Positions 1-50,192 of a stretch of 50,192 nucleotides of DNA are shown one piece after another. The notes below the pieces were generated by a model. That model searched no databases, had not been told where the DNA came from, and saw only the letters and a list, made by a program, of their open reading frames with translations. Every line of letters begins with the position of its first letter. Position 1 is the first letter of the stretch. Source of the DNA: a virus; IMG/VR virus record IMGVR_UViG_3300017917_001192, positions 1 through 50,192 of that record. One strand, 5' to 3'. The position numbers and the translations under genes were made by a program.

Positions 1-786
1 ATGCGCTTTAGGAGCAAACGCACTCATATCACTATCCCAACCAAAAGCATACTTACCATTCTTTTCAGCGGTTTGTAATACTGCTGTACTATCTGTATTC
101 TGTAACAATACATCAGCCTTTTGATTAATCAATGCTTGTGCTGCTTCACTTTCTTTTGGTGGATCGAACCATGTGTTGACCCATACAACTTTGGTAGTTA
201 CTTTAGGATTTACACTGCGTGCTCCCAATGTGAATGCGTTAATATTACGCAATACTTCAGGGATAGGGAAACTACCTACAAAACCAATTGTATTTGTTTT
301 AGTCATTGTACCAGCTACAATACCTGCCAAGTAAGCATCTTCATAAAACTTTGCTTCATAGACACGTAAGTTTTCACTTGTTTTATAACCTGTAGCATGT
401 TCAAACTTAACATCAGGATGATCTTTAGCTACTTTTTCCATAGCATCGCCGAAACCAAATGATGTAGCAAAAATCAATTTATGACCTTGTGACACTAGGT
501 CACGAATAACTCGCTCGGCATCAGCACCTTCAGGTACTTTTTCTACAAAAGTAGTTTTGATTTTGTCACCAAATTTACTTTCAATATGTTTACGACCATT
601 ATCATGTGCGAATGTCCAACCAGCATCGCCAACTGGACCAACATAAATAAATCCAACTTTTAACTGCTCTGCTGCTTTTGGAGCTTCTGTGGGTTTAACT
701 TCTTCTTTTTTAGAACAAGCAGCTATTGCGAATACAGTAAGCATTGCCCCAATTGAAAGCAATAAATTCCGTTTTTTAAATATCAT
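1..786 (-). CDS. BMP-family ABC transporter substrate-binding lipoprotein, C-terminus cut by window edge
   Basis: The visible 262 residues begin with a basic N-terminus, a hydrophobic stretch and a lipobox (A-I-A-A-C, Cys24) followed by a charged linker, so this should be a lipoprotein exported by the bacterial host. The mature part starts with 'KVGFIYVGPVGDAGWTFAH' and continues with a VPEGADAE-type helix, 'IFATSFGFGDAM', 'FEHATGYKT', 'GFVGSFPIPEVLRNINAF' and 'GWDSDMSAF'. These are hallmarks of the BMP (basic membrane protein/Med/PnrA) periplasmic binding family, whose characterised members bind nucleosides or purines. Family members are about 330-360 residues, so roughly a quarter is missing. 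The start is supported by an AGAGGAA ribosome site at 8 bases. It follows the repeat-protein gene by 22 bases on the same strand, so it is probably cotranscribed. Base composition matches its phage neighbours. Substrate is unknown; membrane components, if any, are not in the window. Confidence 0.9.
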   Translation of the reverse strand, partial: MIFKKRNLLLSIGAMLTVFAIAACSKKEEVKPTEAPKAAEQLKVGFIYVGPVGDAGWTFAHDNGRKHIESKFGDKIKTTFVEKVPEGADAERVIRDLVSQGHKLIFATSFGFGDAMEKVAKDHPDVKFEHATGYKTSENLRVYEAKFYEDAYLAGIVAGTMTKTNTIGFVGSFPIPEVLRNINAFTLGARSVNPKVTTKVVWVNTWFDPPKESEAAQALINQKADVLLQNTDSTAVLQTAEKNGKYAFGWDSDMSAFAPKAH

Positions 787-808: not shown

Positions 809-3800
809 TTATTTAATATTTCCGTATTTGTTATAAAAATATTGTTTACACCATGGCCAATCATAGCTGAGTTTAAGTTTTTCTATATCACCATTTACAC
901 TATTATAATATTCAACACCATCCTTTGCTCCATTAATGCTATATTCAGAAAAGTTACCCTCAGCTTTTTCACACCAAACGTCTAATCGTACTTTATCAAT
1001 TGGATAATCGCTAGCACTTAGTTTAATAGTTTCACGGAAAGCTGTACGCCATGTGCTAAATTCATCAGTGTTAAACATAGCTATACCTGAATTTATTCTA
1101 CATACTTCATGTTCGCTATCAAGTGTGAAATCTAGTCCTACTCCTGAATTATCTAATACTAACTTTTTATTATAAGCAATCATTGCTTGATGACCATATA
1201 CTAAACCATTAACTGGGTTCAATGCGTGAAATATATAATGTTTAGGCTTTTGTAATCTATCAGGTTGCCAACTAAAATCAAACTTTGGATTAATTTTTAA
1301 TTTGGCAAATACTGTAAACATCCACGGGGTATTACTAGCAACAGCAGCGGCATGATATGATTTAACTCTACCATTTACACCATCAACTCTTACTACTCTA
1401 TTATCTAAATGTTTAGTATGTTCTATCAAATATTCATAATGCTCGTCAGCTAGTTTTTCGCCATTACTTAAAAATACAATGTCTAATGGTCTGCTACCTA
1501 CACAAGTCTTACTTGTTATAATATATGGGTAATCATATAGTTCATCCTTGACATAACTTACTACATCATATGGGATAATACAATTACTTGCCCCAATACT
1601 ATTAATAATAATATTTCTGTTCTGAACTGTCCAAAAACTCATTGGTTCATCTATTTTTACTTTTGTGTCGGCATTATCTATCGTTACAAAATTAATGTAT
1701 GGAAAGTTAAATTCACTATTAACAGAATCTACCATTGTATCACTATCAAGCGTAACTATAGGACATTCTACTCTACGTGTTCTAAAGGTTTCGTTAAAAT
1801 TAATTTTATCAAATTTTGATAAATCATCCAAGTCTTTTAACAAATTTAAATTGACAAATATCGTATCGCCATATTTTTGTTTATCACATGGAAAAGTATG
1901 TAGTTGATCCGTTGCGAATGGATCCACAACATAGGTAAAGTCAAAATCAGTATAATCACTAAGTGTACTTACTATCCATACAAAATTATCTGTTTTTGTT
2001 TCTTCAATAAGTGGTAATAAAGTTTGATATAAATCAACACAATAACGCAGCGTATATTTTACTTTATTACTTGTTTTATTATTAATATTATCAACAAACT
2101 GATTTATATCTGTATTGTTGAAATCAATAACAATAACATCATATAGACAATTTGTAATAGCTGCCCTACGTGTTTTTACATGATTAATATTAGGCAGATG
2201 TTCAATAATTTTTATATATTTGGTATCTTCTTCAAACTTTTCACAGTTAACTAGATATGTTGTACCCCAATGATTCCATTGTGTACCAAATACATTTACC
2301 ATACTCATTTGCCATGGATTGGGATAGTAATTAAAGTCAAAATTAGTATAAACTAATTCGCTATTCAATATCCAACACAATTCTGTTTGTGACTTTTTGG
2401 TACATCTAACAATAGTATCTACCCAACTATTTAAAAACCGTGTGCGTTGTATATTTGGATACAATTCTTTAAGTTTACTAAAACGCTCTGAACTTTGCTT
2501 ATTCCCACGATCAACAAAAAACATATCAGGTTTTTTAAACGATTGTACTAGAAATTCTTCAGTAATTTGTTTATCATGTTCAACAAAATTAATTAACTTA
2601 TGACCTTTAGCAATCATTTTACCATTAACAAGATATGTACAAGTTATTTCACTTTCTGGACTACCAAACGCATTGATATGATAGCTGTTATCTTTATTAG
2701 GTCTCCAACTAAAGTCAAAGTTATCATAGTTTAAATTGCTACGGCATGCCCAAAATAATTCGTTCTTATGTTTTTCAATAAGTTCATCTAATGAGTTATC
2801 AATGTAATATCTAGGAATATCAGTTGGATTAATTTCCTTGCGTAATATTTTAATAACAGTTCCATCATTACCGGGAGTTATATATCTGGGTCCATCGTTC
2901 TCATCAGTTGTAGTGCCAAATTGATATATGTAAGGTGGACTAGTTCCATCAGGATGCCAACTAAAATCAAAATTGTCTACACGAATATTTTCAGGAATTT
3001 CCCAGTGCTCATTACTTGGTAGTACTTCCGCTATGATATCTTCAACATATTTTACTACAGTAGCACCTTTGACAACATACCTTGGGCCATGTGTTTTAGC
3101 CCATTGTGTTCCAAATTGGTATATGTAAGGATCGTCATTTGGATTTGGTATCCAGCTGTAATCAAATTTTTTGACTAAACGTGTGTTTTCAAAATGTTCA
3201 GGTCTTTGCTTTATTGTAGCTATAACATCATGAACATACTTTATTGTTGTGCCTTTTTTATTAACATATTTTACAGTAGGCATAACTTCAGGACCATACC
3301 ATTGATTTCCAAACACATACGTCATGGGTGGATCATATGGATCAGGTATCCAACTATAATCAAATTCTATATCATCAAAAAGTTTTTCAAATAAATCGGG
3401 GTTCTGTTTTAGTTTAACTGTTAAATCATTTATGTATTTTTTGTCAGTTGCTCCCTCGACAACATACTGTAGTGCGGGCATCTTTTCAGCACTATATTGT
3501 GTATTTCCAAACACATAGATAAATTTTGGTTCACGTGGATCTGGTCTCCAACTAAAGTCAAAACTATCTTCATCAACATCATGTAATAAAAACCAACGAT
3601 CCCATTCAGGTTTAACTGGAACATCATCACTCATATACTTACGTTGACTACTACCTGGCACATGATACTCTAATGTAGGTTGTATAACACTTGGTACATA
3701 CTTATTACCCCATGTATATATAAAAGCAGGTTCACGTGGATCAGGTCTCCAAGCCAAATCAAAGTTTTCATTATCAACTTGCTGAACCTGTACCATGTAT

Positions 3801-4324
3801 TTGCTCGGCAACAGTTCAACAAATTGATCCATATACTTGACTTGAGTTGCCCCAGGTACTATATATTCTAGTACATGTTGTAATTCATTTGGATAATATT
3901 TACATCCCCAACGATATATAAAACTTGGTTCAGTAGGATCAGGATGCCAACTAAAATCAAATTTATTTGTGTCAACATCTTCATAAAACTTCCAATTACT
4001 GTTAATATTAGCTATACGTTTAATTGGTTCTACATCGTTTCTGTAAATTTTATATTGTTCTTTGTTAGTATTGGCAACTAACCACGTACCACTATCTTTT
4101 TGGTGTTGACTAGGCCATATGTTTATATGTTCTATTGCCCATTTATCTTCATCCAATAACCTGTCAAAATCAAATTCAAAATCAAAATTTGTGTAATCAC
4201 AAAACTCGTTTATTATCCAAAAATGTTCTGTAGTAGCAAGGCTTTTCGCATGTTCAAAGTCACTTGCTTTACGTTCAGTTGGATAAACGTTGGGCTTTGC
4301 GCCATAATAAAATACATCTCTCAT
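809..4324 (-). CDS. Large 'FDFSW-PDP' repeat protein with C-terminal glycosyltransferase-like domain
   Basis: This 1171-residue protein contains about eleven copies of a module centred on F-D-F-S-W-x-P-D-P, usually followed by a (P)xYIYxFG/WG segment and a 'Y-V-V-x-G-A-T-x-x-K-Y' ending. Copies 2 to 7 sit at a very regular spacing of 195-201 bases (65-67 residues). Outer copies are more diverged (for example 'YTNFDFEF' near the start and 'YTDFDFTY' near 1940). The last copy is embedded in a C-terminal domain (about residue 943 onward) that resembles the neighbouring 318-residue protein: 'RVDGVNGRVKSYHAAAVAS' and 'NPVNGLVYGHQAM' both have counterparts there. No signal peptide or membrane segment is seen. 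No ribosome site is obvious before the ATG, 20 bases after the preceding gene. The repeats are familiar to me only from uncharacterised marine viral proteins. A glycan-related role is inferred from context; fibre or adhesin function is also possible. Confidence 0.75.
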   Translation of the reverse strand: MRDVFYYGAKPNVYPTERKASDFEHAKSLATTEHFWIINEFCDYTNFDFEFDFDRLLDEDKWAIEHINIWPSQHQKDSGTWLVANTNKEQYKIYRNDVEPIKRIANINSNWKFYEDVDTNKFDFSWHPDPTEPSFIYRWGCKYYPNELQHVLEYIVPGATQVKYMDQFVELLPSKYMVQVQQVDNENFDLAWRPDPREPAFIYTWGNKYVPSVIQPTLEYHVPGSSQRKYMSDDVPVKPEWDRWFLLHDVDEDSFDFSWRPDPREPKFIYVFGNTQYSAEKMPALQYVVEGATDKKYINDLTVKLKQNPDLFEKLFDDIEFDYSWIPDPYDPPMTYVFGNQWYGPEVMPTVKYVNKKGTTIKYVHDVIATIKQRPEHFENTRLVKKFDYSWIPNPNDDPYIYQFGTQWAKTHGPRYVVKGATVVKYVEDIIAEVLPSNEHWEIPENIRVDNFDFSWHPDGTSPPYIYQFGTTTDENDGPRYITPGNDGTVIKILRKEINPTDIPRYYIDNSLDELIEKHKNELFWACRSNLNYDNFDFSWRPNKDNSYHINAFGSPESEITCTYLVNGKMIAKGHKLINFVEHDKQITEEFLVQSFKKPDMFFVDRGNKQSSERFSKLKELYPNIQRTRFLNSWVDTIVRCTKKSQTELCWILNSELVYTNFDFNYYPNPWQMSMVNVFGTQWNHWGTTYLVNCEKFEEDTKYIKIIEHLPNINHVKTRRAAITNCLYDVIVIDFNNTDINQFVDNINNKTSNKVKYTLRYCVDLYQTLLPLIEETKTDNFVWIVSTLSDYTDFDFTYVVDPFATDQLHTFPCDKQKYGDTIFVNLNLLKDLDDLSKFDKINFNETFRTRRVECPIVTLDSDTMVDSVNSEFNFPYINFVTIDNADTKVKIDEPMSFWTVQNRNIIINSIGASNCIIPYDVVSYVKDELYDYPYIITSKTCVGSRPLDIVFLSNGEKLADEHYEYLIEHTKHLDNRVVRVDGVNGRVKSYHAAAVASNTPWMFTVFAKLKINPKFDFSWQPDRLQKPKHYIFHALNPVNGLVYGHQAMIAYNKKLVLDNSGVGLDFTLDSEHEVCRINSGIAMFNTDEFSTWRTAFRETIKLSASDYPIDKVRLDVWCEKAEGNFSEYSINGAKDGVEYYNSVNGDIEKLKLSYDWPWCKQYFYNKYGNIK

Positions 4325-4344: not shown

Positions 4345-5604
4345 TCACAACTTTAATCTAGCTATTAGGTCAACCACATAGTTTGGGTTGTGTTTAAAAT
4401 CAATCAATAAATTGAAATTATATTCTACAACATCCCTGCATTTTTCAACTAAAAGTAATTTTTCTGAATAACTTAACTTGCTAATACTTTCTACCAAATC
4501 TAAGATTTTATAAAATCTTTCAGTATGGTCTGTTGTTTCGTCATAACTTTCATCAAATATTTCACTAAAAGTTTTAAATCCCAATGTTTTTAAATATCTT
4601 AAAATATGAGGTGGACCTAACATAATAAAAGGTTGTCTATACAATATTGGTTTGTAAGTTTTTTCTGTTAAATGTATAATGTCTGTATTAAAGTAAGTTT
4701 CACTTACAACGTGAAAAAGACTTGTGTCATATAAATTTTTTGTAGCATCAAATCTATCAAACATAAGATTACTTGTTACCAAATCATGGGTATCAAGAAT
4801 TAAAGGAAGTCTTTGTTCTACTTGATTTAATATTTCGTGATTTAAATCATTTGTATTTTTAAAATAAAAATTATAAAAATGGTGAGTACTTACTGTTTCA
4901 GAATAGTTTGAATTATGGTCAACATCTGTTTTATTAAAACTTATATAAAAATCCTCAAATAAATTTCTTTTGAATATATTATACAAAAACAAAGTACGAT
5001 GTGGATGATGGGCCCATCTACGATTAAACATCAAAAAAGTTTTATTTTTTACACTTGTTATGTAGCTATTATCATTTAAAAAATTATTGGCTAAATTAGA
5101 ATTAATCCAATAATTTTCAATCATATAATCTAATCTTAATTGAGGCTCTTCCCCTATATTATCACAATATTTTTTGTAAAGTTCATTGCCATTTAAACAA
5201 CAAGTCAAATATATTACTTGGGAATTTGGAAGATTATTTCTTTTAAAATATTCATGTATTTTAACCATTCTGTGTGGTTGTATGGGACTTTCATAAGGTA
5301 TGGTCACTAACAATATGGCAGTTTTATTTCTAATACGTTCCAATACAATATCAGGGCAAGGATCAATTTCTAAAAAACCTTCATCTCCGAAAAACTTTTC
5401 AGGTTCTATCAACCAAGATTGTTGATACTCATATAAAAAGGTTTCATCAGGAATATTACCAATAAAATATGCAGGTTCTGCTAAATTAAGTTTTTCTAAA
5501 ATATTAAAAAAACTTGTTTTACCAATACCGTGTATTCCAATTGGACTACTATGATTAAAATTTTTAAAAACAAATTTTAATTTTTTTTGCGTATTCAACT
5601 TCAA
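4345..5604 (-). CDS. Uncharacterised glycan-operon protein with N-terminal P-loop-like motif and GT-like C-terminal half
   Basis: A protein of about 420 residues. Near its N-terminus it has G-I-H-G-I-G-K-T, which fits the Walker A pattern GxxxxGK[ST]; I see no convincing Walker B. The C-terminal half contains 'LFHVVSETYF', 'HLTEKTYKPI' and 'QPFIMLGPPHILRYL'. This arrangement resembles the donor-binding region of GT10-like and other GT-B glycosyltransferases (an E-x-T-Y/F segment followed by T-E-K). Function is therefore probably glycan-related, but I do not recognise a named family. The start is uncertain. The frame is open to a TTG at 5613, but a TTG at 5604 overlaps the upstream TGA as TTGA and lies just after a GGAG. 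A TTG at 5598 has better spacing from the same GGAG. The gene lies between the FkbM methyltransferase and the FDFSW repeat protein. Confidence 0.7.
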   Translation of the reverse strand: MKLNTQKKLKFVFKNFNHSSPIGIHGIGKTSFFNILEKLNLAEPAYFIGNIPDETFLYEYQQSWLIEPEKFFGDEGFLEIDPCPDIVLERIRNKTAILLVTIPYESPIQPHRMVKIHEYFKRNNLPNSQVIYLTCCLNGNELYKKYCDNIGEEPQLRLDYMIENYWINSNLANNFLNDNSYITSVKNKTFLMFNRRWAHHPHRTLFLYNIFKRNLFEDFYISFNKTDVDHNSNYSETVSTHHFYNFYFKNTNDLNHEILNQVEQRLPLILDTHDLVTSNLMFDRFDATKNLYDTSLFHVVSETYFNTDIIHLTEKTYKPILYRQPFIMLGPPHILRYLKTLGFKTFSEIFDESYDETTDHTERFYKILDLVESISKLSYSEKLLLVEKCRDVVEYNFNLLIDFKHNPNYVVDLIARLKL

Positions 5605-6257
5605 TGACTCCAAAAAATAGTGTTAATACAATCTTCATATATTGTTGTATAACCATTATTTAAAATATGTGTTCTTACCTTTTTAGCATTTTCTTGTAAA
5701 TTAATAAATTGTGAATAAGCATCATGTATATCACACAATTCAACAATCATCATTTTTGGTCTATAAAGTTGTAAATTAAAACTATCAAATACCTCTTTTT
5801 CATACCCTTCAGTATCAACCACTAATAATTCAAAATTATTTTTGACATTATGTTTTTGAAATATATTATGTAATGTTTTAACTGTAATAGTCTCTTTTTG
5901 TAAATTTGATTGTTTATACATTATTTCATGGGCACGATTAACTTCTTCAACTACTGTGCTAAGTCCTCCACTTAAATATATTTCAGATAATCCTTCTACA
6001 GATCCTATACCCACTTGTTCAAATATTAAATCATTGTTCTTATGATTTTCTTTACACATATCCATATGAGATTTAATAGGTTCGATATAAATTCCCTTCC
6101 AACCTATATCTGCTAGAAAACCTGTATTAGTCCAGCTTCTACCGTCATATGCTCCCACTTCAACAAAAAAACCATTATCAATATTACCAAAGTAACTTTG
6201 GTATATTTCTTTTAAATTAGGTATTTGACAATCATCTGGTACTATAAAATCTTTCAT
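5601..6257 (-). CDS. FkbM-family SAM-dependent methyltransferase
   Basis: A 218-residue protein with a class I methyltransferase core. The SAM-binding strand-loop 'FFVEVGAYDGRSWTNT' lies around residues 29-44, followed by 'GIYIEPIKSHMDMCKEN' and, near residue 145, 'ELLVVDTEGYEKEVFDSF'. These are the characteristic motifs of the FkbM family, which O-methylates sugars and polyketide-type substrates. The length is typical of a single-domain member. The start ATG overlaps the stop codon of the epimerase gene as ATGA, so translation is probably coupled. Placement next to a nucleotide-sugar epimerase and glycosyltransferase-like genes suggests methylation of a sugar. The acceptor is unknown. Confidence 0.9.
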   Translation of the reverse strand: MKDFIVPDDCQIPNLKEIYQSYFGNIDNGFFVEVGAYDGRSWTNTGFLADIGWKGIYIEPIKSHMDMCKENHKNNDLIFEQVGIGSVEGLSEIYLSGGLSTVVEEVNRAHEIMYKQSNLQKETITVKTLHNIFQKHNVKNNFELLVVDTEGYEKEVFDSFNLQLYRPKMMIVELCDIHDAYSQFINLQENAKKVRTHILNNGYTTIYEDCINTIFWSH

Positions 6258-7207
6258 AATTTAGAAATTATCCAATTGTATGTTTGCGTTAATCCATATT
6301 CCAAATCTTCATTTGGTTTCCAATTTAACTTTTCTTGTATTAGTTTATTGTCACTATTTCTACCCATTACTCCCATTGGACCTTTTATATTTTTAATATT
6401 AATATTTTTGTTTGCTATTTTACCAATTAGTTTTACTAAATTATTAATACTAATCATGTATTCACTTCCCAAATTAATTGGTTTATTATAATCGCATTCC
6501 ATAATTCTGTGAATACCTTGTATACATTCATCAATGTATAAAAAACTACGTGTTTGTGTTCCTGGTCCCCATACTTCAATTTCATCATTAACATTTGCTG
6601 TAGCTACTTTACGACATAAAGCAGCAGGCGCCTTTTCTTTGCCATTATTATAAGCACCATATGGTCCATAAATATTATGGAATCTAGCAATACGTACATG
6701 AAAATTATAATTTTTCGCAAAAGACATATACAATCGTTCGCTAAATAATTTTTCCCAACCATACTCACTATCTGGATTGGCAGGATAAGCACTTTCTTCG
6801 CTACATAATGGATTGTTGGGATCTGTTTGATTGTGTTCAGGATAGATACATGCGCTTGAACTATAAAAAACCCTGTTCACGCCTTTCTTATGCATTTCGT
6901 CTAATACGTTTAGATTAATTGTGGCGCTGTTATGCATAATGTTAGCGTCATTATCGCCAGTAAATATGTAGCCAGCACCTCCCATATCAGCAGCTAATTG
7001 ATATACTTCATGTACATCAGAGGTAATTAAATTACTAACATTTTCTTGACTTCTTAAGTCCATTTTAAAGAACTTATCAGCATTTGTTGAATTATATTCA
7101 GGGTATTTTAAATCAGCACCAATAACATAATATCCCTTATTTTTTAAACTGTTTACAAGATGGTTTCCTATAAAACCACCAGCTCCACATACAATAACTT
7201 TTTTCAT
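6254..7207 (-). CDS. GDP-mannose 3,5-epimerase-like NAD-dependent epimerase
   Basis: An extended short-chain dehydrogenase/reductase of 317 residues. It has the Rossmann motif GxxGxxG (G8, G11, G14), Y149-x3-K153 (YGWEK), and the segments 'FYSSSACIYPE', 'ARFHNIYGPYG', 'EKAPAALCRK', 'WGPGTQTRSFLYIDECIQG' and 'GRNSDNKLIQEKLNW'. These match plant and bacterial GDP-D-mannose 3,5-epimerase (GME) closely. The two acid/base residues of plant GME, Cys145 and Lys217, have counterparts in Cys120 and Lys192 with the same 72-residue spacing. GME converts GDP-mannose to GDP-L-galactose and GDP-L-gulose. The reading frame is open upstream to 7234, but the ATG at 7207 has an AAGGAA site and begins exactly at the Rossmann strand, so I use it. 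It overlaps the FkbM gene by 4 bases. Substrate assignment is inferred from motif similarity. Confidence 0.9.
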   Translation of the reverse strand: MKKVIVCGAGGFIGNHLVNSLKNKGYYVIGADLKYPEYNSTNADKFFKMDLRSQENVSNLITSDVHEVYQLAADMGGAGYIFTGDNDANIMHNSATINLNVLDEMHKKGVNRVFYSSSACIYPEHNQTDPNNPLCSEESAYPANPDSEYGWEKLFSERLYMSFAKNYNFHVRIARFHNIYGPYGAYNNGKEKAPAALCRKVATANVNDEIEVWGPGTQTRSFLYIDECIQGIHRIMECDYNKPINLGSEYMISINNLVKLIGKIANKNINIKNIKGPMGVMGRNSDNKLIQEKLNWKPNEDLEYGLTQTYNWIISKL

Positions 7208-7218
7208 TATTAAATTCC

Positions 7219-7983
7219 TTAAACATAAATCCATTTTAACGGACTTATATAATTATCATCCTTTAAACCTGTAATTAAAATAGGTTCATTATCATTTTTA
7301 ATCGTGTCCCCGTTAAAGTCCTGATAATAAGGTACTTTGTGTATAAAGACACATTTATTAACATTTTTTAAACATAGTAGTGAAAGTATACTTTGATCGT
7401 GCCTATGTTCTATATATTGATCGTAATTTTTTTCAATTGATTCTGAATCATCAATAAGATGATCAATGAGTGCCAATTCATACCAATGGTTTAAAAAATC
7501 TATTGTTTCATCAGTGCGTTTCCAAAAATGTATTGTTGCTATTGTCAATGGACTATTATGATAGAATTCATAATCAGTATTGGTATATACGTATAAATCT
7601 CTTTTGGTCCATTGAATGGTGTTAGCCATAGTAAATCCTAACATTATTTTTGAATCTTGTTCTAGCATATCAAGATAAAAATTTAATCGTTTTTTACCAA
7701 GAGGATTTATTGAACATCCTGCGTCTGCCCATATTAAAATTTCATTTTCCGATAACGTTTCTAGTGTTTTTAATACACAGTAGGGTTTCCAAAACCAATA
7801 TCCATAACCCCTTGTGTGGTCTAAATTTTTTACCTTTTCTTTAAACTTTTCTGACAAAAAAACTTTGTCCAAACAAACTACACGTGAGAAAAAATCAGAT
7901 AATATGGCTTCCTTAGCCAATCTAAATTTACTTTTATGAAAAAATCCACCTTCACCAAATGTTACTAATACAGGTTTTTTCAT
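7219..7983 (-). CDS. Putative glycosyltransferase (GT-A-like)
   Basis: A 254-residue soluble protein with 'RGYGYWFWKPYCVLKTLETL' near residues 58-78, then 'ILIWADAGCSIN' with an Asp-Ala-Gly-Cys at the end of a hydrophobic strand, and 'HRHDQSILSLLC' in the C-terminal third. This set (R-G-x-G-Y-W-x-W-K-P, a strand ending in a metal-binding-like Asp, and a late H-D-Q-S) is the signature of a family of small GT-A-like proteins common in capsule clusters and marine viruses, usually annotated as glycosyltransferase or nucleotide-diphospho-sugar transferase. No classical DxD is present. The start ATG follows the radical SAM gene by 2 bases; the stop lies 11 bases before the epimerase start. Donor and acceptor cannot be read from sequence. 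Confidence 0.75.
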   Translation of the reverse strand: MKKPVLVTFGEGGFFHKSKFRLAKEAILSDFFSRVVCLDKVFLSEKFKEKVKNLDHTRGYGYWFWKPYCVLKTLETLSENEILIWADAGCSINPLGKKRLNFYLDMLEQDSKIMLGFTMANTIQWTKRDLYVYTNTDYEFYHNSPLTIATIHFWKRTDETIDFLNHWYELALIDHLIDDSESIEKNYDQYIEHRHDQSILSLLCLKNVNKCVFIHKVPYYQDFNGDTIKNDNEPILITGLKDDNYISPLKWIYV

Positions 7984-7985
7984 TT

Positions 7986-9389
7986 TTATCGTTTACAACT
8001 TTGGAAAAAATCTGTTAATTCTGGAAATACTTTAACAAAATTAGTATTATTACGACGGTCGTATTCACTATAAAAAAGATAAAAATCCTTTTTAGCAGTT
8101 TCAATATCAAAATCTATAGGACTTTTTATCCAATCAATTAATCTCTGTACTTTACTAATTTGAAAATCATAAAAACCTACGTAATGATTTTCTCGTGTAA
8201 TTCTATATTCTTCCATAAACTCTTTAGTTTTTTCAAGTTCAGGCAATAGATTAGTATATAGTTTTGCATTTAACCACACTGGATATTCTAAATGCGGCAT
8301 ATCAAAACAAATAAAACCAGGATTATTTGTTGGATATTTTTTTTGAAGTTCTAAAATATTCTTAATAAACTGATAAAAACCACTATAACTTAACACATTA
8401 AACGTTATAATAAATGTTAAGCTATGAGAGGATCCATTTTTTAAATAGTCATTAATATTGTTATATAACACATCAAAATCCATTCCATTTCGTATATACT
8501 CTGCTTGTTTGCCCCAAGTGTCTAAGCTACAATATAACAAAAATCTTTTATATGATTTATTTTCATTCATCTCTTTGAGTGAATTCATAAACTTAGCCCA
8601 TTGATTCCCTGGAGGGCAACAATTACTTGTAATACTCAATTCTAGATCCTGTTTAGGATTTTTCTTAACATAATCAAAAATTCTAAAAGTACTTTTGTCC
8701 ATTAATGGCTCACCACCAGTCATTCTAAATGTTTTTAATGTTGGGTAAATTGACGGGAACCATTCCCAAAATGCTAACAAATAAGGATTGTCTGGACCGT
8801 TGTTTGGCCACATATTAGCATTTTTCATCCAAATTGTATCATTGTGTTTTGTTTTAGTTAATTGGTATGGCCCATGTTTATCAATATCTTTCATCCATTC
8901 AGTGCTAAGATGAGGGCTACAATAACTACATTTAAAATTACAAGCTTGATTAAAATTAACTTCTACATATCTTGGTTTAGCATTACCAATATCTTTTATA
9001 TTAAGTGCTTCATTTATAATATCATCTTCATAAACGTCATTACTTCTATATGCTCTGTCACTTAATTCTTCACCACTATCTTCAATTCTCCAACAAAATT
9101 CACACTCAGGAGGGCGAACTCCTTCTAACATCATCTTTCGTTGTGACTTTTTATGTTTTGTATTATGTAAGGCACTTACATCTATTTCAATTTCTTCTAA
9201 TGGAATATGATGACTGCGTGGATGATAGCAACTATGTGTTTGTCCTGTAGGAATATGTATGCTTACATTAAACCATTTTGCTAAACAAAAACTTGGACTA
9301 ACTTCATTTAATTTTTCATATACTTTTTTTGAGTTAGCTCCGTAATTTGAAGAAAAACTTTTAACTTCGCTATTTTGATTTTCTGACAA
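7986..9389 (-). CDS. Twitch-domain-type radical SAM protein
   Basis: A protein of about 467 residues with the radical SAM cluster motif CxxxCxxC in 'NQACNFKCSYCSPH' (about C150, C154, C157 from the start used here) and the SAM-contacting 'MTGGEPLMD'. Additional cysteines upstream include C-E-F-C-W, as in the viral 'twitch domain-containing radical SAM' group, where a second iron-sulphur site is likely. Product chemistry is unknown; possibilities include peptide or sugar modification. The frame is open to a TTG at 9404, but a TTG at 9389 lies just after the preceding stop (TAAATTG) and has AAGG at 8 bases, so I prefer it. It follows the 318-residue GT-like gene directly and is in the same operon as the methyltransferase and epimerase. 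Confidence 0.88.
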   Translation of the reverse strand: MSENQNSEVKSFSSNYGANSKKVYEKLNEVSPSFCLAKWFNVSIHIPTGQTHSCYHPRSHHIPLEEIEIDVSALHNTKHKKSQRKMMLEGVRPPECEFCWRIEDSGEELSDRAYRSNDVYEDDIINEALNIKDIGNAKPRYVEVNFNQACNFKCSYCSPHLSTEWMKDIDKHGPYQLTKTKHNDTIWMKNANMWPNNGPDNPYLLAFWEWFPSIYPTLKTFRMTGGEPLMDKSTFRIFDYVKKNPKQDLELSITSNCCPPGNQWAKFMNSLKEMNENKSYKRFLLYCSLDTWGKQAEYIRNGMDFDVLYNNINDYLKNGSSHSLTFIITFNVLSYSGFYQFIKNILELQKKYPTNNPGFICFDMPHLEYPVWLNAKLYTNLLPELEKTKEFMEEYRITRENHYVGFYDFQISKVQRLIDWIKSPIDFDIETAKKDFYLFYSEYDRRNNTNFVKVFPELTDFFQSCKR

Positions 9390-9390
9390 T

Positions 9391-10347
9391 TTACCAACCT
9401 TCAATTGAACGGATTACATCCATTTCTTTTACTAATAATCCTTTGTTATACTTATCTGCCCCGTAATGTCGCTTGAAAAATCTACTTTGCTCAACATCAA
9501 ACATACACATAGGCAATCCTAACTTATCATTTAATTCTATACCAATCTGTTCTGACATTTCTGTAGGATCCTTTTCCTTACAATGTTCATCCCACAATTG
9601 TGGATAATTATCAAACCACTGTACATTATTTGGATCCCAATCAGTTAACATCGTTAAATATGTACCTAGTCTTGCTCCATATATTGCCCATATTCCGTTA
9701 TCAACATCTGTCCCAACATTTTGCCATATAGTAAGATTATTAAAATTTCTACTTACTACACTTGTTTTAAACTCATCAATACTTGGCACACGTCCACCAT
9801 GTAATACCATTTTTACGCCTTCACGAAATCCAGCACGCCATGCTTGAAAACTTGTATAGTTTGGATACGTAATACTATAACAATCGTGCATAGCCCAATA
9901 AATATTATCTCCACTATCTAAACAAAAATCTACAGTAGTTGTACGGTTTCCATCACTGTGTTCATGCGTTTTCATACCAGCAACATAAGTTTTAGTCCAA
10001 CTACTCATACCACCATTGCCATATCGCAATCCATTAATATGATTGATTGCTTTCCAACGATACTGTGCTATTTTATAAACAGGATCTTTACCACGAAAAT
10101 CAAACTGCCCATTAAAGAATTCAGGATGTGGCATGTTATCACCGTCAATCAATATAAAACGTTCAGTATCACTTGCTTCTCCTGCTGCTTTATGGGCAGC
10201 ATCACTACCTTTTACACCATCAACACGCTTTGCCCATGGCACCATGTTTTTAATCTTTAACCAAAATTCTTCTTTTTGTGGTTCATCATAGCTTAGATAG
10301 ATACAATCTAAGTCAGCAATATCAATAATATCAAGTTCTGTACTCAT
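9391..10347 (-). CDS. Putative glycosyltransferase-like protein, related to C-terminus of the FDFSW repeat protein
   Basis: A 318-residue protein with a strand 'DLDCIYLSYDEP', then 'WAKRVDGVKGSDAAHKAAG', then 'RFILIDGDNMPHPEFF', a hydrophobic strand ending in D-G-D-N that looks like a GT-A DxD metal site. Later segments include 'INHINGLRYGNGGMSSWTK' and 'FQAWRAGFREGVKM'. The same landmarks in the same order occur in the last about 230 residues of the 1171-residue protein (RVDGVNG, NPVNGLVYG, FSTWRTAFRETIKL), so the two are homologous. The ATG overlaps the upstream 111-residue gene by 17 bases. A sugar transferase role is inferred; the substrate is unknown. Confidence 0.7.
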   Translation of the reverse strand: MSTELDIIDIADLDCIYLSYDEPQKEEFWLKIKNMVPWAKRVDGVKGSDAAHKAAGEASDTERFILIDGDNMPHPEFFNGQFDFRGKDPVYKIAQYRWKAINHINGLRYGNGGMSSWTKTYVAGMKTHEHSDGNRTTTVDFCLDSGDNIYWAMHDCYSITYPNYTSFQAWRAGFREGVKMVLHGGRVPSIDEFKTSVVSRNFNNLTIWQNVGTDVDNGIWAIYGARLGTYLTMLTDWDPNNVQWFDNYPQLWDEHCKEKDPTEMSEQIGIELNDKLGLPMCMFDVEQSRFFKRHYGADKYNKGLLVKEMDVIRSIEGW

Positions 10348-10666
10348 AAACTTTTACACTCCAACATTTTTTATTAATATAATTTTCATCAACAATAATA
10401 CTTACATCATATGGATGACATGGTGTTCCATTATTACTAGGTACTAATTTTTCAACAATTATATAATTTACGTTTTTAACAATCTGCCCATCAATAACTC
10501 GTATATCATAACGTGACTCAGCAAATGTTTGACTATCAATAACAATATGGTTGCCAGGTAAATCTTCTGTAGTATAATGTAATACTTTACCCTTTTCGTC
10601 ATAATACAATCTAAAGATTGGTTTTACTATTTTAGGCGCTTCAAAGATTATTATTTCTTCACTCAT
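10331..10666 (-). CDS. Hypothetical small protein of the glycan operon
   Basis: A 111-residue protein without signal peptide or membrane segment. Its central part ('FRLYYDEKGKVLHYTTEDLP', then 'YIVIDSQTFAES'-like 'HIVIDSQTFAESRYDIRVID') looks all-beta and resembles small conserved proteins of cyanophage-like viruses whose role is unknown to me. The ATG overlaps the stop of the upstream glycosyltransferase-like gene as ATGA, and its own 3' end overlaps the next gene by 17 bases, so it is clearly part of the operon. No function is proposed. Confidence 0.7.
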   Translation of the reverse strand: MSEEIIIFEAPKIVKPIFRLYYDEKGKVLHYTTEDLPGNHIVIDSQTFAESRYDIRVIDGQIVKNVNYIIVEKLVPSNNGTPCHPYDVSIIVDENYINKKCWSVKVYEYRT

Positions 10667-11448
10667 AACATATTACAAAAGTTTTTATTTACATAATGTA
10701 CAGGGTATTTCTGTGCGTAACAATTTATTTTAAAACAATCATCATTTACTTCATAAATCAAATTATCTGTCCAATTTTCACTAAAAATGTTATTGATTTC
10801 TTTTTTCATATGTACAAAACTAAAATCAGTAAAACAATCTAACGTAGTATGTTCATACCCGATAATATGACTAGCTAAACTATATACCCAATCTGTTGTT
10901 GCTGGTTCATTACTATTACAACGCAAGATTTTTCTATATTGATCCCAATTCTCAAAAATATTTTTAACAACTTTGTAAAACTTTTGTGCTAGTTCAGTCT
11001 TAGAAAAGTAAGTCAATCCATTATATGTATCAGGTAATTTATTGTCTGTAATAAATCTTCTATAGTATTTTACTTTGCTTAACTCTTGTTTAAAGTTTCT
11101 TATATTAGTACAAACAACTACATCTTTAATAGATAACACGTCCCAATAGTAGTCTATATTATATGGTACGTAAATATCAGCTTCAATCTTTATTGTATGT
11201 TTATATGGACTAGCTTCATACACCTGCCAATCATTGATTAATTTCCAATCACTATAGGGTGCTAAGTCTCCATATGGAAGTTTTACAATACTGTCAAATA
11301 CAGGTTCATTAACATCTTCATCAGTCAATAATGTTACATGACAATTGGGCATAGACAATTTTAAACTTTTGGCACATAACTTAGCACAGTCAATATAGTT
11401 AACTTTTTTTGTGTTTTGTGCGTAGATTAAATAACCACGGTCTATCAT
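10663..11448 (-). CDS. Putative glycosyltransferase (paralogue of the next upstream gene)
   Basis: A 261-residue protein that opens 'GYLIYAQNTKKVNYIDCAKL', followed by 'CHVTLLTDEDV' and 'EASPYKHTIKIEADIYVPY'. The strand ending E-A-D is placed like a GT-A metal site. The overall order (first strand, 'LLTD' strand, 'SPY..T..(I/L)..D' strand) is shared with the 265-residue protein encoded just upstream, whose corresponding segments are 'GVLLFAHNN', 'SVTLVTD' and 'ELSPYDNTLLLDVDYVI'. The pair are therefore diverged tandem paralogues. Start and stop overlap neighbouring genes by ATGA on both sides. Likely cytoplasmic; donor sugar unknown. Confidence 0.7.
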   Translation of the reverse strand: MIDRGYLIYAQNTKKVNYIDCAKLCAKSLKLSMPNCHVTLLTDEDVNEPVFDSIVKLPYGDLAPYSDWKLINDWQVYEASPYKHTIKIEADIYVPYNIDYYWDVLSIKDVVVCTNIRNFKQELSKVKYYRRFITDNKLPDTYNGLTYFSKTELAQKFYKVVKNIFENWDQYRKILRCNSNEPATTDWVYSLASHIIGYEHTTLDCFTDFSFVHMKKEINNIFSENWTDNLIYEVNDDCFKINCYAQKYPVHYVNKNFCNML

Positions 11449-12242
11449 AACATTTCCATTAACTTACTTTTATCTAATACATGGAAATCAATATTATTAA
11501 TTGTAATGTATTCTTGTCGTGTTTTTCCATATGAATTTTTTTCAAATATTGCTGTAAAGTCAGTACAAAACTTACTATCATTGTTTTTGTAAAAATTTGT
11601 AATTTTACCTACGTGTAACAAGTTCCATGGAATTACATCGTGTGTATTAAATAAATGCCCATTTACAATATCTAATGCCAATGTTAATGAGTAATCGTTC
11701 CTATATTGATTTGGTATGAAGTTATGTATTTGTCCATAATGTTTATAATTGTTTTCAATCATTTCCATACAATCAAATACTTGTCTAGCTTTGTTTGTTT
11801 TTTTAAAACATACTACAGTTGCCCAAAATGTTTGATGGCTGTAGTTAGATAAAAACTCTTGTTTATATTCGTAATAGTTTACGTATTGTACTGTATTATG
11901 GGCACAGATATCTGTTACAAAATTAAAAACTTTTAGTAGTTGGTCACTATTAATAACATAATCTACGTCTAGTAATAATGTGTTATCATATGGGCTTAAT
12001 TCATAAGCACGATGCCGACCTTTATTAATCCAAGTTTTATTACGTATTTGATTATCAATGTTTGGTTCTACTAGTAATATGTTGTCAAAGTTATGATCGT
12101 TGTCGTTATTAAATGTTTCTATATCAGTCACTAAGGTTACTGATAAATTTAAAAAATGTTTTATTCTTTCACAACAATGTTTTGCCATACTATAATAATC
12201 ATAGTGTGAATTATTATGAGCAAATAGTAATACCCCATTCAT
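11445..12242 (-). CDS. Putative glycosyltransferase with DxD motif
   Basis: A 265-residue protein with a GT-A-like layout: first strand 'GVLLFAHNNSHYDYYSMAKH', then 'LSVTLVTDIE', then 'YELSPYDNTLLLDVDYVINS' carrying D-V-D, the likely metal and nucleotide-sugar site. A later segment 'FWATVVCFKKTNKARQVFD' resembles the acceptor-side strand of GT8-like folds. It is paralogous to the next gene downstream. The ATG overlaps the TGA of the 101-residue gene. No signal peptide is seen. It is one of at least four glycosyltransferase-like proteins in this operon. Confidence 0.72.
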   Translation of the reverse strand: MNGVLLFAHNNSHYDYYSMAKHCCERIKHFLNLSVTLVTDIETFNNDNDHNFDNILLVEPNIDNQIRNKTWINKGRHRAYELSPYDNTLLLDVDYVINSDQLLKVFNFVTDICAHNTVQYVNYYEYKQEFLSNYSHQTFWATVVCFKKTNKARQVFDCMEMIENNYKHYGQIHNFIPNQYRNDYSLTLALDIVNGHLFNTHDVIPWNLLHVGKITNFYKNNDSKFCTDFTAIFEKNSYGKTRQEYITINNIDFHVLDKSKLMEML

Positions 12243-44584: not shown

Positions 44585-44899
44585 TTAAATACCTAAAACT
44601 TGTTTTAATGTTTCTAATTTTGGAACATATATTCCTAAACCAGTAACAAAATCAAAATATGGATCATTACCTAGTCTGTTTGGATTACGTTGTGCGAATA
44701 CCCACCATAATTTACTATCTCCATATAAATCAAAAGCTAGTAAGTCAGGTCTGTATTGATATGTTTCTGTAAGAACAATATATACATCGCTTGGAAACAT
44801 TGGAATAGGCCTGTAAACCATAAAATCTAAAAACTTGGCATTTGTAACGCCAGTATTATAATACGGACTTGTTGCTGGGTATATTGTATTAATTGCCAT
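44585..44899 (-). CDS. gp53: Baseplate wedge protein gp53-like
   Basis: A 104-residue LysM-like wedge protein: 'SDVYIVLTETYQYRPDLLAF', 'DLYGDSKLWWVFAQRNPNRL' and 'DFVTGLGIYVPKLETLKQVL'. This is the gp53/LysM-like pattern, the D-L-Y-G-D-x-x-L-W-W motif being diagnostic. It connects the wedges around the hub. The ATG at 44899 shares an A with the TAA of gp48 (TAATG). The frame continues 6 bases upstream to a TTG, but the ATG is the better start. Confidence 0.9.
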   Translation of the reverse strand: MAINTIYPATSPYYNTGVTNAKFLDFMVYRPIPMFPSDVYIVLTETYQYRPDLLAFDLYGDSKLWWVFAQRNPNRLGNDPYFDFVTGLGIYVPKLETLKQVLGI

Positions 44900-46638: not shown

Positions 46639-46657
46639 ATCATAGTATCCTATTACA

Positions 46658-46664
46658 TATTTAT
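46658..46664 (-). promoter_or_regulatory. Late-promoter-like ATAAATA motif before gp48
   Basis: Minus-strand C-ATAAATA-TG, ending 19 bases before the ATG at 46638 in the divergent gap. It is a candidate gp55-dependent promoter for the whole baseplate cluster. Confidence 0.5.
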
Positions 46665-46705
46665 GATAAATAAAAAAGCACTTTTTTACCCACATTTTAC
46701 CCTAA

Positions 46706-46726
46706 ATGTTGTGCCCTCCGCAACAT
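46706..46726. repeat. Inverted repeat in the gp48/gp55 divergent gap
   Basis: ATGTTG and CAACAT flank TGCCCTCCG; with a G-T pair the arms extend to ATGTTGTG/CGCAACAT, closing a five-base loop. It ends four bases before the extended -10 of the gp55 promoter, covering the -35 region. This is a plausible operator for a repressor. A hairpin in a transcript reading through is the alternative. Confidence 0.55.
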
Positions 46727-46729
46727 ATG

Positions 46730-46738
46730 TGTTATAAT
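46730..46738 (+). promoter_or_regulatory. Extended -10 promoter for gp55
   Basis: TGTTATAAT is a perfect extended -10 (TGnTATAAT). The start of transcription would be near 46745, giving a leader of about 15 bases that holds the AAAGGA ribosome site at 46750-46755. The -35 is weak (TTGTGC near 46709), as expected for an extended -10 promoter recognised by host sigma-70. Confidence 0.6.
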
Positions 46739-46759
46739 ATTTCTAAAATAAAGGATTCT

Positions 46760-47656
46760 ATGAGTACCACAAAAAAGCCTGTTAACTACCTTAATAATAG
46801 GGACATACTAAAAGAAATACACGAAAGCAAAAACAGTTATTGCTATTATACAAAACAAGAATATCATCATTATGATTTAATAGTTGATATGCCTCAAGAT
46901 ACGCTTGAGGCTTGTTTTAAATACGCACATAAACGTGATAAGATTAAACAAGCAAAAGAAAATCGTGCCGCTAGATTATCAAACGAAACTGGTACAAAGA
47001 TTGAACCAAAATCTATTCCAACTACTGATTTAGTATTTCGTGTTATGACTTGGGAACATATCCCACTCAGTCCAAAACTACAAAAGAAAACATTAAAGAA
47101 AAAAACAGCAATTGATATAATGGAGTTTGATGATATTGATGAAGAAATCTTTGTTGATTTGGAAGACCCAACCACAGCAGGTGAGGTTGATGATATGGTA
47201 CATATGAAAGTAAACTTCCCACCATTTCAACATTATAAAATTGATGATGAAGGTAGCTTTTATTGTGTAGGTAAAAGTCATTGGAAAGGTGGCATTAAAC
47301 GTGGTCATTTTAGCAAAGATCATGGAAATCTTACTGATAAACTAGCACGTATGTATATTATGTTATGTGAAAAATACGCTATGAAGTTTAATTGGCGTGG
47401 ATATACATATAACGATGAAATGCGTAATTCAGCTATATTACAATTGACTTATGTTGGGTTGCGATTCAACGAAGCAAAATCACAAAACCCATTCGCATAT
47501 TATACCGCAGCAATTACAAATAGTTTTTGCCGTGTATTGAATACGGAAAAACGCAATCAAAACATACGTGATGATATATTAGAAATGAATGGACTTAACC
47601 CAAGTTATTCACGCATGAATTCAGGTATACGTGAAAAAGCTTGGTTAGAAGATTAA
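46760..47656 (+). CDS. gp55: Late-transcription sigma factor gp55-like
   Basis: A 298-residue protein from the ATG with AAAGGA at 4 bases; an earlier in-frame ATG at 46706 lies in the inverted repeat and has no ribosome site. The N-terminal 'NYLNNRDILKEIHESK' resembles T4 gp55 'NYVNNKELLQAI'. The core at about 195-275, 'NWRGYTYNDEMRNSAILQLT', 'RFNEAKSQNPFAYYTAAITN' and 'SFCRVLNTEKRNQNIRDDI', is the sigma region that binds late -10 elements. The C-terminal 'EKAWLED' resembles the sliding-clamp-binding end of T4 gp55 (DFLYE). An insertion of about 140 residues, acidic and Lys-rich, separates the two parts. It should direct host polymerase to the ATAAATA motifs upstream of tail genes. Confidence 0.9.
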   Translation: MSTTKKPVNYLNNRDILKEIHESKNSYCYYTKQEYHHYDLIVDMPQDTLEACFKYAHKRDKIKQAKENRAARLSNETGTKIEPKSIPTTDLVFRVMTWEHIPLSPKLQKKTLKKKTAIDIMEFDDIDEEIFVDLEDPTTAGEVDDMVHMKVNFPPFQHYKIDDEGSFYCVGKSHWKGGIKRGHFSKDHGNLTDKLARMYIMLCEKYAMKFNWRGYTYNDEMRNSAILQLTYVGLRFNEAKSQNPFAYYTAAITNSFCRVLNTEKRNQNIRDDILEMNGLNPSYSRMNSGIREKAWLED

Positions 47657-47703: not shown

Positions 47704-48717
47704 ATGGCAAATTTATTTAAAAAAGCAGCATTTTTTACCGATCTACATTATGGTTTAAAGAGTAACAGTCTACAACATAATCAAGATTGTGATAATTTTG
47801 TAGACTGGTTTATTCAAAAAGCTAAAAAAGAAAACTGTGAAACCTGTTTCTTTTTGGGCGATTATAATCATCATCGTGCTAGTATTAACATACAAACATT
47901 ACAGTTTGGATTGCGTGGATTAGAAAAACTCAGTCAAAATTTTGACATGGTTTATTTTATTCCAGGCAATCACGACCTGTATTATCGTGACCGTCGTGAT
48001 ATACATAGCGTTGAATGGGCAAAACATTTACCTAATGTAAAAATTATTAATGACTTTTTCAAACAAGATGATGTAGTCATACTACCTTGGTTGGTACAGG
48101 ATGATTATAAAAAAGTTCAGAAAATGTCAAGTAAGTATTTGTTTGGTCATTTAGAATTACCACATTTTTACATGAATGCTATGGTAGAAATGCCTGATCA
48201 TGGCGAAATGAATGAAAATCATTTACAAGGCTTTGAATATGCTTTTAGTGGTCATTTTCATAAACGCCAAGCCCGCAAAAATATTTGGTATATAGGAAAT
48301 GCTTTCCCACATAATTATGCTGATGCCGGTGATGATGCTCGTGGAATGATGATATTAGAATGGGGAGAAACTCCCACATTCTATAGTTGGCCAAGACAAC
48401 CAGTTTACCGTGTACATAAACTTAGCGACATACTTGACAACCCACAAGGCTTGCTATTAATTGATAGTCATGTTAGGGTACATTTAGATATTGACATTAG
48501 CTATGAGGAGGCAAACTTTTTGCGTGAAACTTTTATTCCAGAATATAAACTTCGTGAAATGACATTGATACCTATGAAATTAGAAAATGTTGAACAAGGT
48601 AATTTTGAAGGATTGAAATTTGAAAGTGTTGATCAAATCATTGTGGATCAAATCAATGCTATAGAAAGCAAAGGCTTTGATAAAAAACTATTGTTGGACA
48701 TTTATAACACACTATGA
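47704..48717 (+). CDS. gp47: Recombination endonuclease subunit gp47-like (SbcD/Mre11 type)
   Basis: A 337-residue metallophosphoesterase, near the 339 residues of T4 gp47. The metal ligands are in order: D13-x-H15 (TDLHYG), G52-D53-Y, G-N89-H90-D91 (PGNHD), G-H149 (FGHLE) and G-H184-F-H186. It is the nuclease part of the gp46/47 complex that resects DNA ends for recombination-dependent replication. It starts 47 bases after gp55 and its TGA overlaps the gp46 start (ATGA), consistent with obligate partnership. No ribosome site is clear. See the promoter entry for possible leaderless expression. Confidence 0.95.
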   Translation: MANLFKKAAFFTDLHYGLKSNSLQHNQDCDNFVDWFIQKAKKENCETCFFLGDYNHHRASINIQTLQFGLRGLEKLSQNFDMVYFIPGNHDLYYRDRRDIHSVEWAKHLPNVKIINDFFKQDDVVILPWLVQDDYKKVQKMSSKYLFGHLELPHFYMNAMVEMPDHGEMNENHLQGFEYAFSGHFHKRQARKNIWYIGNAFPHNYADAGDDARGMMILEWGETPTFYSWPRQPVYRVHKLSDILDNPQGLLLIDSHVRVHLDIDISYEEANFLRETFIPEYKLREMTLIPMKLENVEQGNFEGLKFESVDQIIVDQINAIESKGFDKKLLLDIYNTL

Positions 48718-50192
48718 TTTCACTTAAAAATATTACACTGCGTAATTTCCTTAGTATTGGACAGGTTACTCAAGCAGTTGACTTTGATAGAAAAGAATTG
48801 ACACTTATTTTAGGTGAAAATCTAGACTTAGGTGGAGATGGTGCTAGAAATGGTACAGGAAAAACTACATTAATACAAGGCTTATGCTATGCTCTTTTTG
48901 GTGTACCAATAAATAATATTCGCAAAGACAATCTTGTTAACCGTACCAATGCTAAGGGAATGCTAGTTACACTAGAATTTAATGTAAATGGTACAGACTA
49001 TAAGATTGAGCGTGGCCGCAAACCTAACTTATTAAAATTTTATGTTAACAACACGTTACAGAAGTCGCAGGATGATGCGCAGGGCGAGAATAAAGAAACA
49101 CAGTCTTTCATTGAACGTACTGTTTGTATGTCACCTGATATGTTTAGGCATATTGTCGCACTTAATACTTACAGCGAGCCTTTTCTAGCACTTAAAGCAA
49201 ACGACCAACGGGCAATCATTGAACAACTACTTGGCATTACACTTCTTTCAGAAAAAGCTGAAACAGTAAAAGATTTAATTAGACAAAGTAAAGACGATAT
49301 TCAACAAGAAGAATTTCGTATTAAAGCGGTTGAAGAAGCCAATAAGCGTGTTAAAGAACAGATTGAAAGTACAAAACGCAGACAGAAACTTTGGAGAGCA
49401 AAACATAACGAAGATTTAGAAAATCTTGCTACTCAATATACTAAATTAAGTCAAATTGATATTGAAAAAGAATTGCAGGCTCATGTAGATTTAGCAACTT
49501 ATAATCAACAGGTTAATCTACAAACTACTTACAATAATAAAGTTGATAGTTTGCGTAAGGATATTGCTAAAGAAGATAAAAGTTACAAAAAACTAGAAAC
49601 CGAAGTTGCTACATTAAAAGATCATAAATGTTATGCTTGTGGTCATGAATTACATGATAAACAACATACTAGTTTTTTAGAAAGCAAACAATCATCATTA
49701 TTAGAAAGTAAAAATTTATTAGATGATTACAGATTTCAATTAGATGAATTGTTAAAATTTCCAATTACAATAATTGACAAACCTATTACACACTATAGCA
49801 CTGAGACTGAAGCTATTAAACATAGTAGTCAAATTGAAACTATTATCAAACAGATTGAAGATAAAAGTAATGAAACTGATCCATATCAGGAACAAATTAA
49901 TGAGATGGAGAGTCAAGCATTACAAGAAATTAGTTTTGATAAAATTAACCAAATTACAAAAACTATGGAACATCAAAAGTTTTTACTTGATTTATTAACA
50001 AGCAAGGATAGCTATGTGCGTAAAAAGATTATTGATCAAAACTTAAGTTATTTGAATTCAAGGTTAACACATTACTTAGATAAGATTGGATTGCCTCATC
50101 AGGTTGTATTTAAAAATGATTTACAAGTTGAGATTACAGAATTGGGTCGTGAGCTTGATTTTGATAATCTTTCGAGGGGTGAGCGTAATAGA
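48714..50192 (+). CDS. gp46: Recombination endonuclease subunit gp46-like (SbcC/Rad50 type), C-terminus cut by window edge
   Basis: The visible 493 residues begin 'MISLKNITLRNFLSIGQVTQ', with a Rad50-type Walker A N-G-T-G-K-T (residues 46-51). Long coiled-coil segments lie on either side of a zinc-hook C-Y-A-C at about 306-309. The window ends at L-S-R-G-E-R, the ABC signature motif, so Walker B and the C-terminal lobe are outside. It is the ATPase partner of gp47. The ATG overlaps the gp47 TGA (ATGA). Confidence 0.95.
   Translation, partial: MISLKNITLRNFLSIGQVTQAVDFDRKELTLILGENLDLGGDGARNGTGKTTLIQGLCYALFGVPINNIRKDNLVNRTNAKGMLVTLEFNVNGTDYKIERGRKPNLLKFYVNNTLQKSQDDAQGENKETQSFIERTVCMSPDMFRHIVALNTYSEPFLALKANDQRAIIEQLLGITLLSEKAETVKDLIRQSKDDIQQEEFRIKAVEEANKRVKEQIESTKRRQKLWRAKHNEDLENLATQYTKLSQIDIEKELQAHVDLATYNQQVNLQTTYNNKVDSLRKDIAKEDKSYKKLETEVATLKDHKCYACGHELHDKQHTSFLESKQSSLLESKNLLDDYRFQLDELLKFPITIIDKPITHYSTETEAIKHSSQIETIIKQIEDKSNETDPYQEQINEMESQALQEISFDKINQITKTMEHQKFLLDLLTSKDSYVRKKIIDQNLSYLNSRLTHYLDKIGLPHQVVFKNDLQVEITELGRELDFDNLSRGERNR

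Follow-up and report, generated by a model that had tools for sequence, protein, structure and literature searches.

A BMP-family lipoprotein encoded by T4-like viruses is predicted to capture purine bases for host uptake

The window, by which we mean the whole stretch of 50,192 nt analysed here (IMG/VR record IMGVR_UViG_3300017917_001192, positions 1 to 50,192), carries at one edge a gene for a protein of the BMP family. We interpret this protein, with a probability of about 0.75, as the viral copy of the substrate-binding component of a bacterial purine-nucleobase ABC transporter of the AtzT/3s99 type, which would boost purine uptake by the host. Among nutrient-binding proteins encoded by viruses, the known examples are mainly PstS proteins, which bind phosphate. 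The features of the window are collected in Table 1.

Table 1. Features of the window, with positions, strand and basis of assignment
Feature	Position	Strand	Basis or remark
BMP-family (PF02608) periplasmic purine-base-binding lipoprotein (predicted), residues 1-262 of ~373	1..786	-	Pfam, sequence, PDB-relative comparison
Predicted ligand-pocket codons Trp57, Ser109, Phe110, Glu177, Trp206, Asn230, Asp232	91..618	-	AtzT alignment, PMC6834077
Signal peptide and lipobox IAAC (lipidated Cys24)	715..786	-	read from sequence
Ribosome-binding site AGAGGAAA	793..800	-	sequence; AGAGG/AAAGGA-type site in syntenic relatives
1171-aa repeat protein (WxPDP-type repeats), directly upstream of BMP	809..4324	-	window and relatives
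TAAATA, core of T4-type late promoter, upstream of BMP	810..815	-	overlaps stop codon of upstream gene
T4-type late sigma factor gp55, marks contig as T4-like virus	46706..47656	+	
gp47/gp46 (SbcD/SbcC-like) recombination nuclease subunits	47704..50192	+	

The BMP frame is open at the contig edge after 262 codons. Full-length relatives have 372–378 residues and the window frame covers only about 70% of the protein; the absence of the ~110 C-terminal residues is due to the end of the contig and not to a break in the gene. The Pfam Bmp model scores 176.4 bits (cut-off 24.1; E 1.6e-53). The N-terminus reads MIFKKRNLLLSIGAMLTVFAIAAC and then SKK, a lipoprotein signal, which together with the Pfam score bears out the binding lipoprotein described in the earlier note. 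The same arrangement of signal peptide and lipobox is found in other freshwater viral copies, and marine viral copies have plain signal peptides without a lipobox. The spacing to the repeat protein is exactly 22 bases (787–808), and both this gap and the gene's own ribosome-binding site agree with what had been read earlier. The GC content of the gene is about 0.36–0.37, against about 0.30–0.31 in the neighbouring gene. The repeat protein is also the upstream neighbour of BMP in six other contigs (G001, G002, G003, G006, G008 and G012), and it has no match in Pfam or PHROG; a shorter relative at 9391–10347, likewise without a Pfam or PHROG match, lies further along the window. The AlphaFold2 model of a full-length viral relative (L002), of moderate confidence with a mean pLDDT of 69 from a shallow alignment, shows the two-domain type I periplasmic-binding fold. 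AtzT ranks first in the PDB for this model (6pi5, Foldseek TM 0.86 of target).

All seven T4-like contigs, as well as G004 and G005, have the TAAATA motif upstream of BMP. In the window this motif occurs upstream of genes 9 times, with 3.6 expected from shuffles and at least 1 of 200 shuffles reaching 9; in the 158-kb contig G008 it occurs 35 times, with 13.9 expected and a maximum of 24 among 200 shuffles. Since the motif in the window shares bases with the stop codon of the preceding gene, it may be coincidental there. From the motif we predict late expression of BMP.

The viral setting of the gene, as claimed in the earlier note, is well founded. Besides gp55 and gp46/47, the window contains a match to baseplate wedge gp53. 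IMG/VR contig 3300010354_007082 (G001, 54 kb) has the same junction of BMP and repeat protein, with alignable DNA across it, and shares 19 syntenic genes with the window at a mean identity of 82%. Its BMP is 94% identical to that of the window at the protein level, so it is not the same molecule. G008 and the window are collinear over about 20 genes, with BMP in the same slot, and G008 encodes the T4 capsid protein gp23 (E 1e-99) and a terminase. The gp23 gene was not found in the window or on most fragments, as expected for incomplete contigs. The BMP proteins of the syntenic contigs are 86–94% identical, yet the DNA shows divergence (dS from about 0.26 to more than 1), so these contigs are independent genomes. 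Three other loci were seen in these contigs. A single 6539-codon frame at 15591–35210 of the window probably encodes a giant virion protein; it is conserved in G001 (82%) and in part also in G008 (41%). A cluster at 4345–12242, with a FkbM methyltransferase, a NAD-dependent epimerase, a radical SAM protein and unassigned proteins, probably serves surface-glycan modification. In G012, the terminase frame is broken by stops at 44676–47403, probably through an assembly error or insertion.

The nearest solved structures to the window part of the protein are AtzT (E 3e-95) and Brucella 3s99 (E 4e-85), and a full-length relative matches 6pi5 (AtzT) with E 1.6e-118. AtzT of Pseudomonas sp. ADP (PDB 6pi5/6pi6/6pii) was purified with guanine and binds guanine with a Kd of 110 nM, adenine with 2.5 µM and pyrimidines only at 620 µM or above (PMC6834077). 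Its ligand contacts Tyr45, Ser97, Phe98, Glu165, Trp194, Asn218 and Asn220 (PMC6834077) correspond, in this order, to the pocket residues of the window protein in Table 1. The two proteins are about 57% identical over the mature protein and share the fold and the pocket positions; AtzT differs in being encoded by a bacterial plasmid gene and in having Tyr45 and Asn220 where the viral protein has Trp and Asp. The same Trp and Asp predominate among 80 bacterial relatives and occur in 3s99. The pocket is Trp, Ser, Phe, Glu, Trp, Asn/His and Asp in 22 of 22 close viral copies, and the same positions are invariant in 62 more-distant viral copies. Brucella 3s99, with adenine modelled in the site, has a pocket (Trp, Ser, Phe, Glu, Trp, His, Asp) identical to that of marine viral copies; it is bacterial, and it has His where the window copy has Asn. 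All ligand-contact positions of the window protein thus carry residues of the AtzT/3s99 subfamily. The conserved pocket and the relatedness to AtzT and 3s99 make a purine base the likely ligand. Asp replaces Asn220 of AtzT, as in all 80 sampled bacterial relatives and in 3s99, so the preferred base may be either adenine or guanine.

Gene neighbourhoods in bacteria point the same way. One bacterial operon (L059) contains an ABC ATPase, two permeases and BMP, and plasmid relatives also have an ABC ATPase and permeases. Another (L041) contains BMP, a Rieske oxygenase and adenosine deaminase. Other bacterial relatives, on plasmids, have BMP with xanthine dehydrogenase (xdhABC), guanine deaminase (guaD), 8-oxoguanine deaminase and urate hydroxylase. 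The purine link suggested earlier is therefore upheld by the operons with xdhABC, guaD or adenosine deaminase. The BMP-type permease family BPD_transp_2 was found in 0 of 13 and 0 of 26 viral records (39 in total, most of them incomplete), while the same search found it in 12 of 14 bacteria and archaea. The viral protein would therefore have to use a host permease. A cognate permease or ATPase does not belong to the definition of a binding protein, and the missing permease in these records means that viral BMP does not make up a whole transporter by itself.

In the proposed role, a late-type promoter would drive expression of BMP during infection, and the product would pass through the Sec/Lol machinery of the host and be anchored as a lipoprotein. 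It would capture purine bases in the periplasm and hand them to the permease and ATPase of the host, because the virus brings none. Purine uptake would be kept up or raised despite the shutdown of host expression, and the captured base would be converted to nucleotide by host salvage enzymes or, in marine relatives, by a viral adenine phosphoribosyltransferase (APRT). We infer the timing, the binding, the docking to the host transporter and the benefit to the virus. If this is true, viruses draw on dissolved environmental nucleobases for genome building, which links viral lysis products (DNA and RNA debris) directly to the following round of infection. The long-standing question of the source of phage nucleotides becomes testable on one transporter, and the predicted beneficiaries are hosts with BMP-type purine permeases.

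Partner genes also occur in the viruses. A 2OG-Fe(II) oxygenase (PF03171/PF14226) follows BMP in 60 of 62 distant viral loci, at varying genomic sites; the remaining 2 loci end just behind BMP. APRT is present in 27 of the 62, with scores above the NCBIfam equivalog cut-offs. This cassette of BMP, 2OG oxygenase and often APRT is seen at L191:6125-8585 and 59 similar loci, some of which adjoin a T4-type DNA polymerase. In some marine viral contigs (L188:5804-6805, also L203 and L220), a PstS-type phosphate-binding gene lies behind the BMP/oxygenase pair, so that these contigs encode two substrate-binding proteins in adjacent positions. Two loci (L010 and L015) have a Rieske/VanA-type oxygenase directly behind BMP, in the same order as the bacterial operons. 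The oxygenase slot is thus occupied by the 2OG-Fe(II) type in marine viruses and by the unrelated Rieske type in some freshwater viruses. One tentative extension, which we regard as possible and still rather doubtful, is a compact viral import-and-salvage pathway for modified purines: BMP would catch an N-substituted purine, the oxygenase would strip the substituent and APRT would make AMP. In that reading, the two unrelated oxygenase types sharing a slot would point to a common reaction important to the virus. APRT and 2OG genes are absent from the freshwater T4-like contigs, where the next genes encode a nuclease, a kinase, AhpC, TerC, AhpD, D-amino-acid dehydrogenase and a Gram-negative porin. 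An island with AhpC, AhpD, TerC, D-amino-acid dehydrogenase and the porin is found at L006:11714-18321, with equivalents in L014, L017 and L022. Porins of this family are encoded on 17 viral contigs, several of them without BMP in the stretch fetched; it is speculative that the porin passes small solutes through the outer membrane for BMP.

A tree of 104 proteins, including bacterial homologues as the earlier note had proposed, places 18 freshwater viral copies in one clade (SH-aLRT 99) adjoining Burkholderiales proteins. The L018 copy groups with a Burkholderiaceae sequence and Hylemonella, and the marine viral copies group with Brucella 3s99. These three separate placements indicate that viruses acquired the gene at least three times and later passed it among themselves. 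The window gene is nested within Burkholderiales BMP proteins, consistent with derivation from bacterial transport genes. The GC content is 0.31–0.43 in freshwater viral loci with close copies and 0.49–0.74 in bacterial loci, so the viral copies have taken on the base composition of viruses. The dN/dS of BMP is 0.04–0.15, where dS above 1 is saturated and the lowest ratios are approximate; the viral gene is under purifying selection. That the closest 'bacterial' matches come from plasmids or MAGs was considered and rejected; they are 72–90%-identical relatives in high-GC Burkholderiales contigs. Those contigs and the viral loci share only BMP-type and Rieske homologues, plus one weak match of 22% identity. 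Burkholderiales may be the hosts, judging from the position of BMP in the tree and from a porin match of 39% identity, a suggestion to be read with the swapping of the BMP gene among phages in mind. A strict porin search had no match in 120 genomes of the order, and the 39% identity comes from a looser search of six genomes and is not informative for the host.

Several other explanations were weighed. The position of the gene at the very edge of the window might suggest a bacterial chromosome fragment mis-assembled onto a viral contig, but the identical arrangement on the independent contigs G001 and G008 refutes the assembly chimera that had been considered earlier. The viral copies also form their own clade and have a lower GC content than the bacterial loci, and we take the probability of mis-assembly as negligible. 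The gene could instead be a passively carried host gene (a moron) of no benefit to the virus, as AT-rich T4-like viruses hold many host-derived genes in the BMP island. The low dN/dS, the repeated acquisition and the presence of BMP in several unrelated virus groups make this improbable. Phage lipoproteins with exclusion functions are known, and a lipoprotein with an apparent late-type promoter would also fit a role in superinfection exclusion or masking, at the cell surface or in the periplasm, in place of nutrient uptake. Such a role would require neither that the ligand pocket stay intact and invariant nor that the gene be linked to APRT and oxygenases, and the marine copies lack the lipobox; this alternative, also raised in the earlier note, is disfavoured and we judge it very improbable.

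A further alternative is that the transporter role holds with another small ligand, such as a nucleoside, an N-substituted purine, vitamin B6 or riboflavin, or a triazine. The BMP relatives PnrA, BmpD and RfuA bind nucleosides or riboflavin, and AtzT binds 2-hydroxyatrazine at 2.2 µM (PMC6834077). The adjoining oxygenases suggest a ligand needing oxidation, and there is a weak NCBIfam match to a putative B6-binding protein. However, the match to the B6 model reaches 56 bits where the cut-off is 400, the E-values of nucleoside- and riboflavin-binding members fall 15–80 orders of magnitude behind those of AtzT/3s99, the pocket positions agree with base-binding members and the bacterial gene contexts are purine-catabolic. 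PnrA, BmpD and Lbp share Pfam PF02608 and the fold with the viral protein but are only about 20% identical and bind nucleosides, not bases. A different ligand is thus unlikely. The nucleoside or purine ligand first proposed is narrowed to nucleobases of the AtzT/3s99 type: the purine part stands, while nucleosides are disfavoured by the far weaker matches to PnrA, BmpD and Lbp.

As a purine-base-binding protein, viral BMP would most likely work like cyanophage PstS (PMC10976474), by analogy with a virus-encoded substrate-binding protein that derives from hosts, presumably uses the host permease and is swapped among viruses. PstS differs in its ligand, phosphate, in its fold family and in its cyanobacterial hosts; BMP would represent a different ligand class, in other viruses, and it lies in cassettes alongside genes for salvage enzymes and oxygenases. 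The gene is spread across aquatic viruses. A scan of IMG/VR with the window protein gave 22 loci on contigs up to 167 kb, and the number of other viral contigs with close copies is at least 22. A profile scan of IMG/VR, extending the search suggested earlier, gave at least 374 related viral loci. For 12 of 12 large records, searching the entire contig confirmed that the gene is there. The carriers include T4-like contigs with many genes in common (G002, G003, G006, G008 and G012) and other large contigs with few (G005, G007 and G009). The marine carrier L191 has a T4-type DNA polymerase and lysozyme near BMP by profile and a clamp loader as read from the sequence, and G037 is a 328-kb contig with a terminase. 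Viral nature was checked for part of the IMG/VR contigs; a terminase match was found in 6 of 26 distant records (3 of them strong), most of which are short fragments.

No description of a viral BMP, or of its cassettes with salvage and oxygenase genes, was found in open-licence PMC full text, and a pelagimyophage survey mentions neither 'basic membrane' nor 'purine'. One deposited viral protein, the 'PnrA-like domain protein' of Podoviridae sp. ctC2p8 (BFVD A0A8S5LUW4), is named as BMP/PnrA-like; it is an undescribed fragment from a gut metagenome, with 28% identity over 188 columns. There is no close match to the window protein in 50,697 phage records. Among named phages, relatives occur only in 14 unannotated human-faecal 'Bacteriophage sp.' records (including MT836531 and MT835719), with up to 43% identity, and these records may be bacterial DNA.
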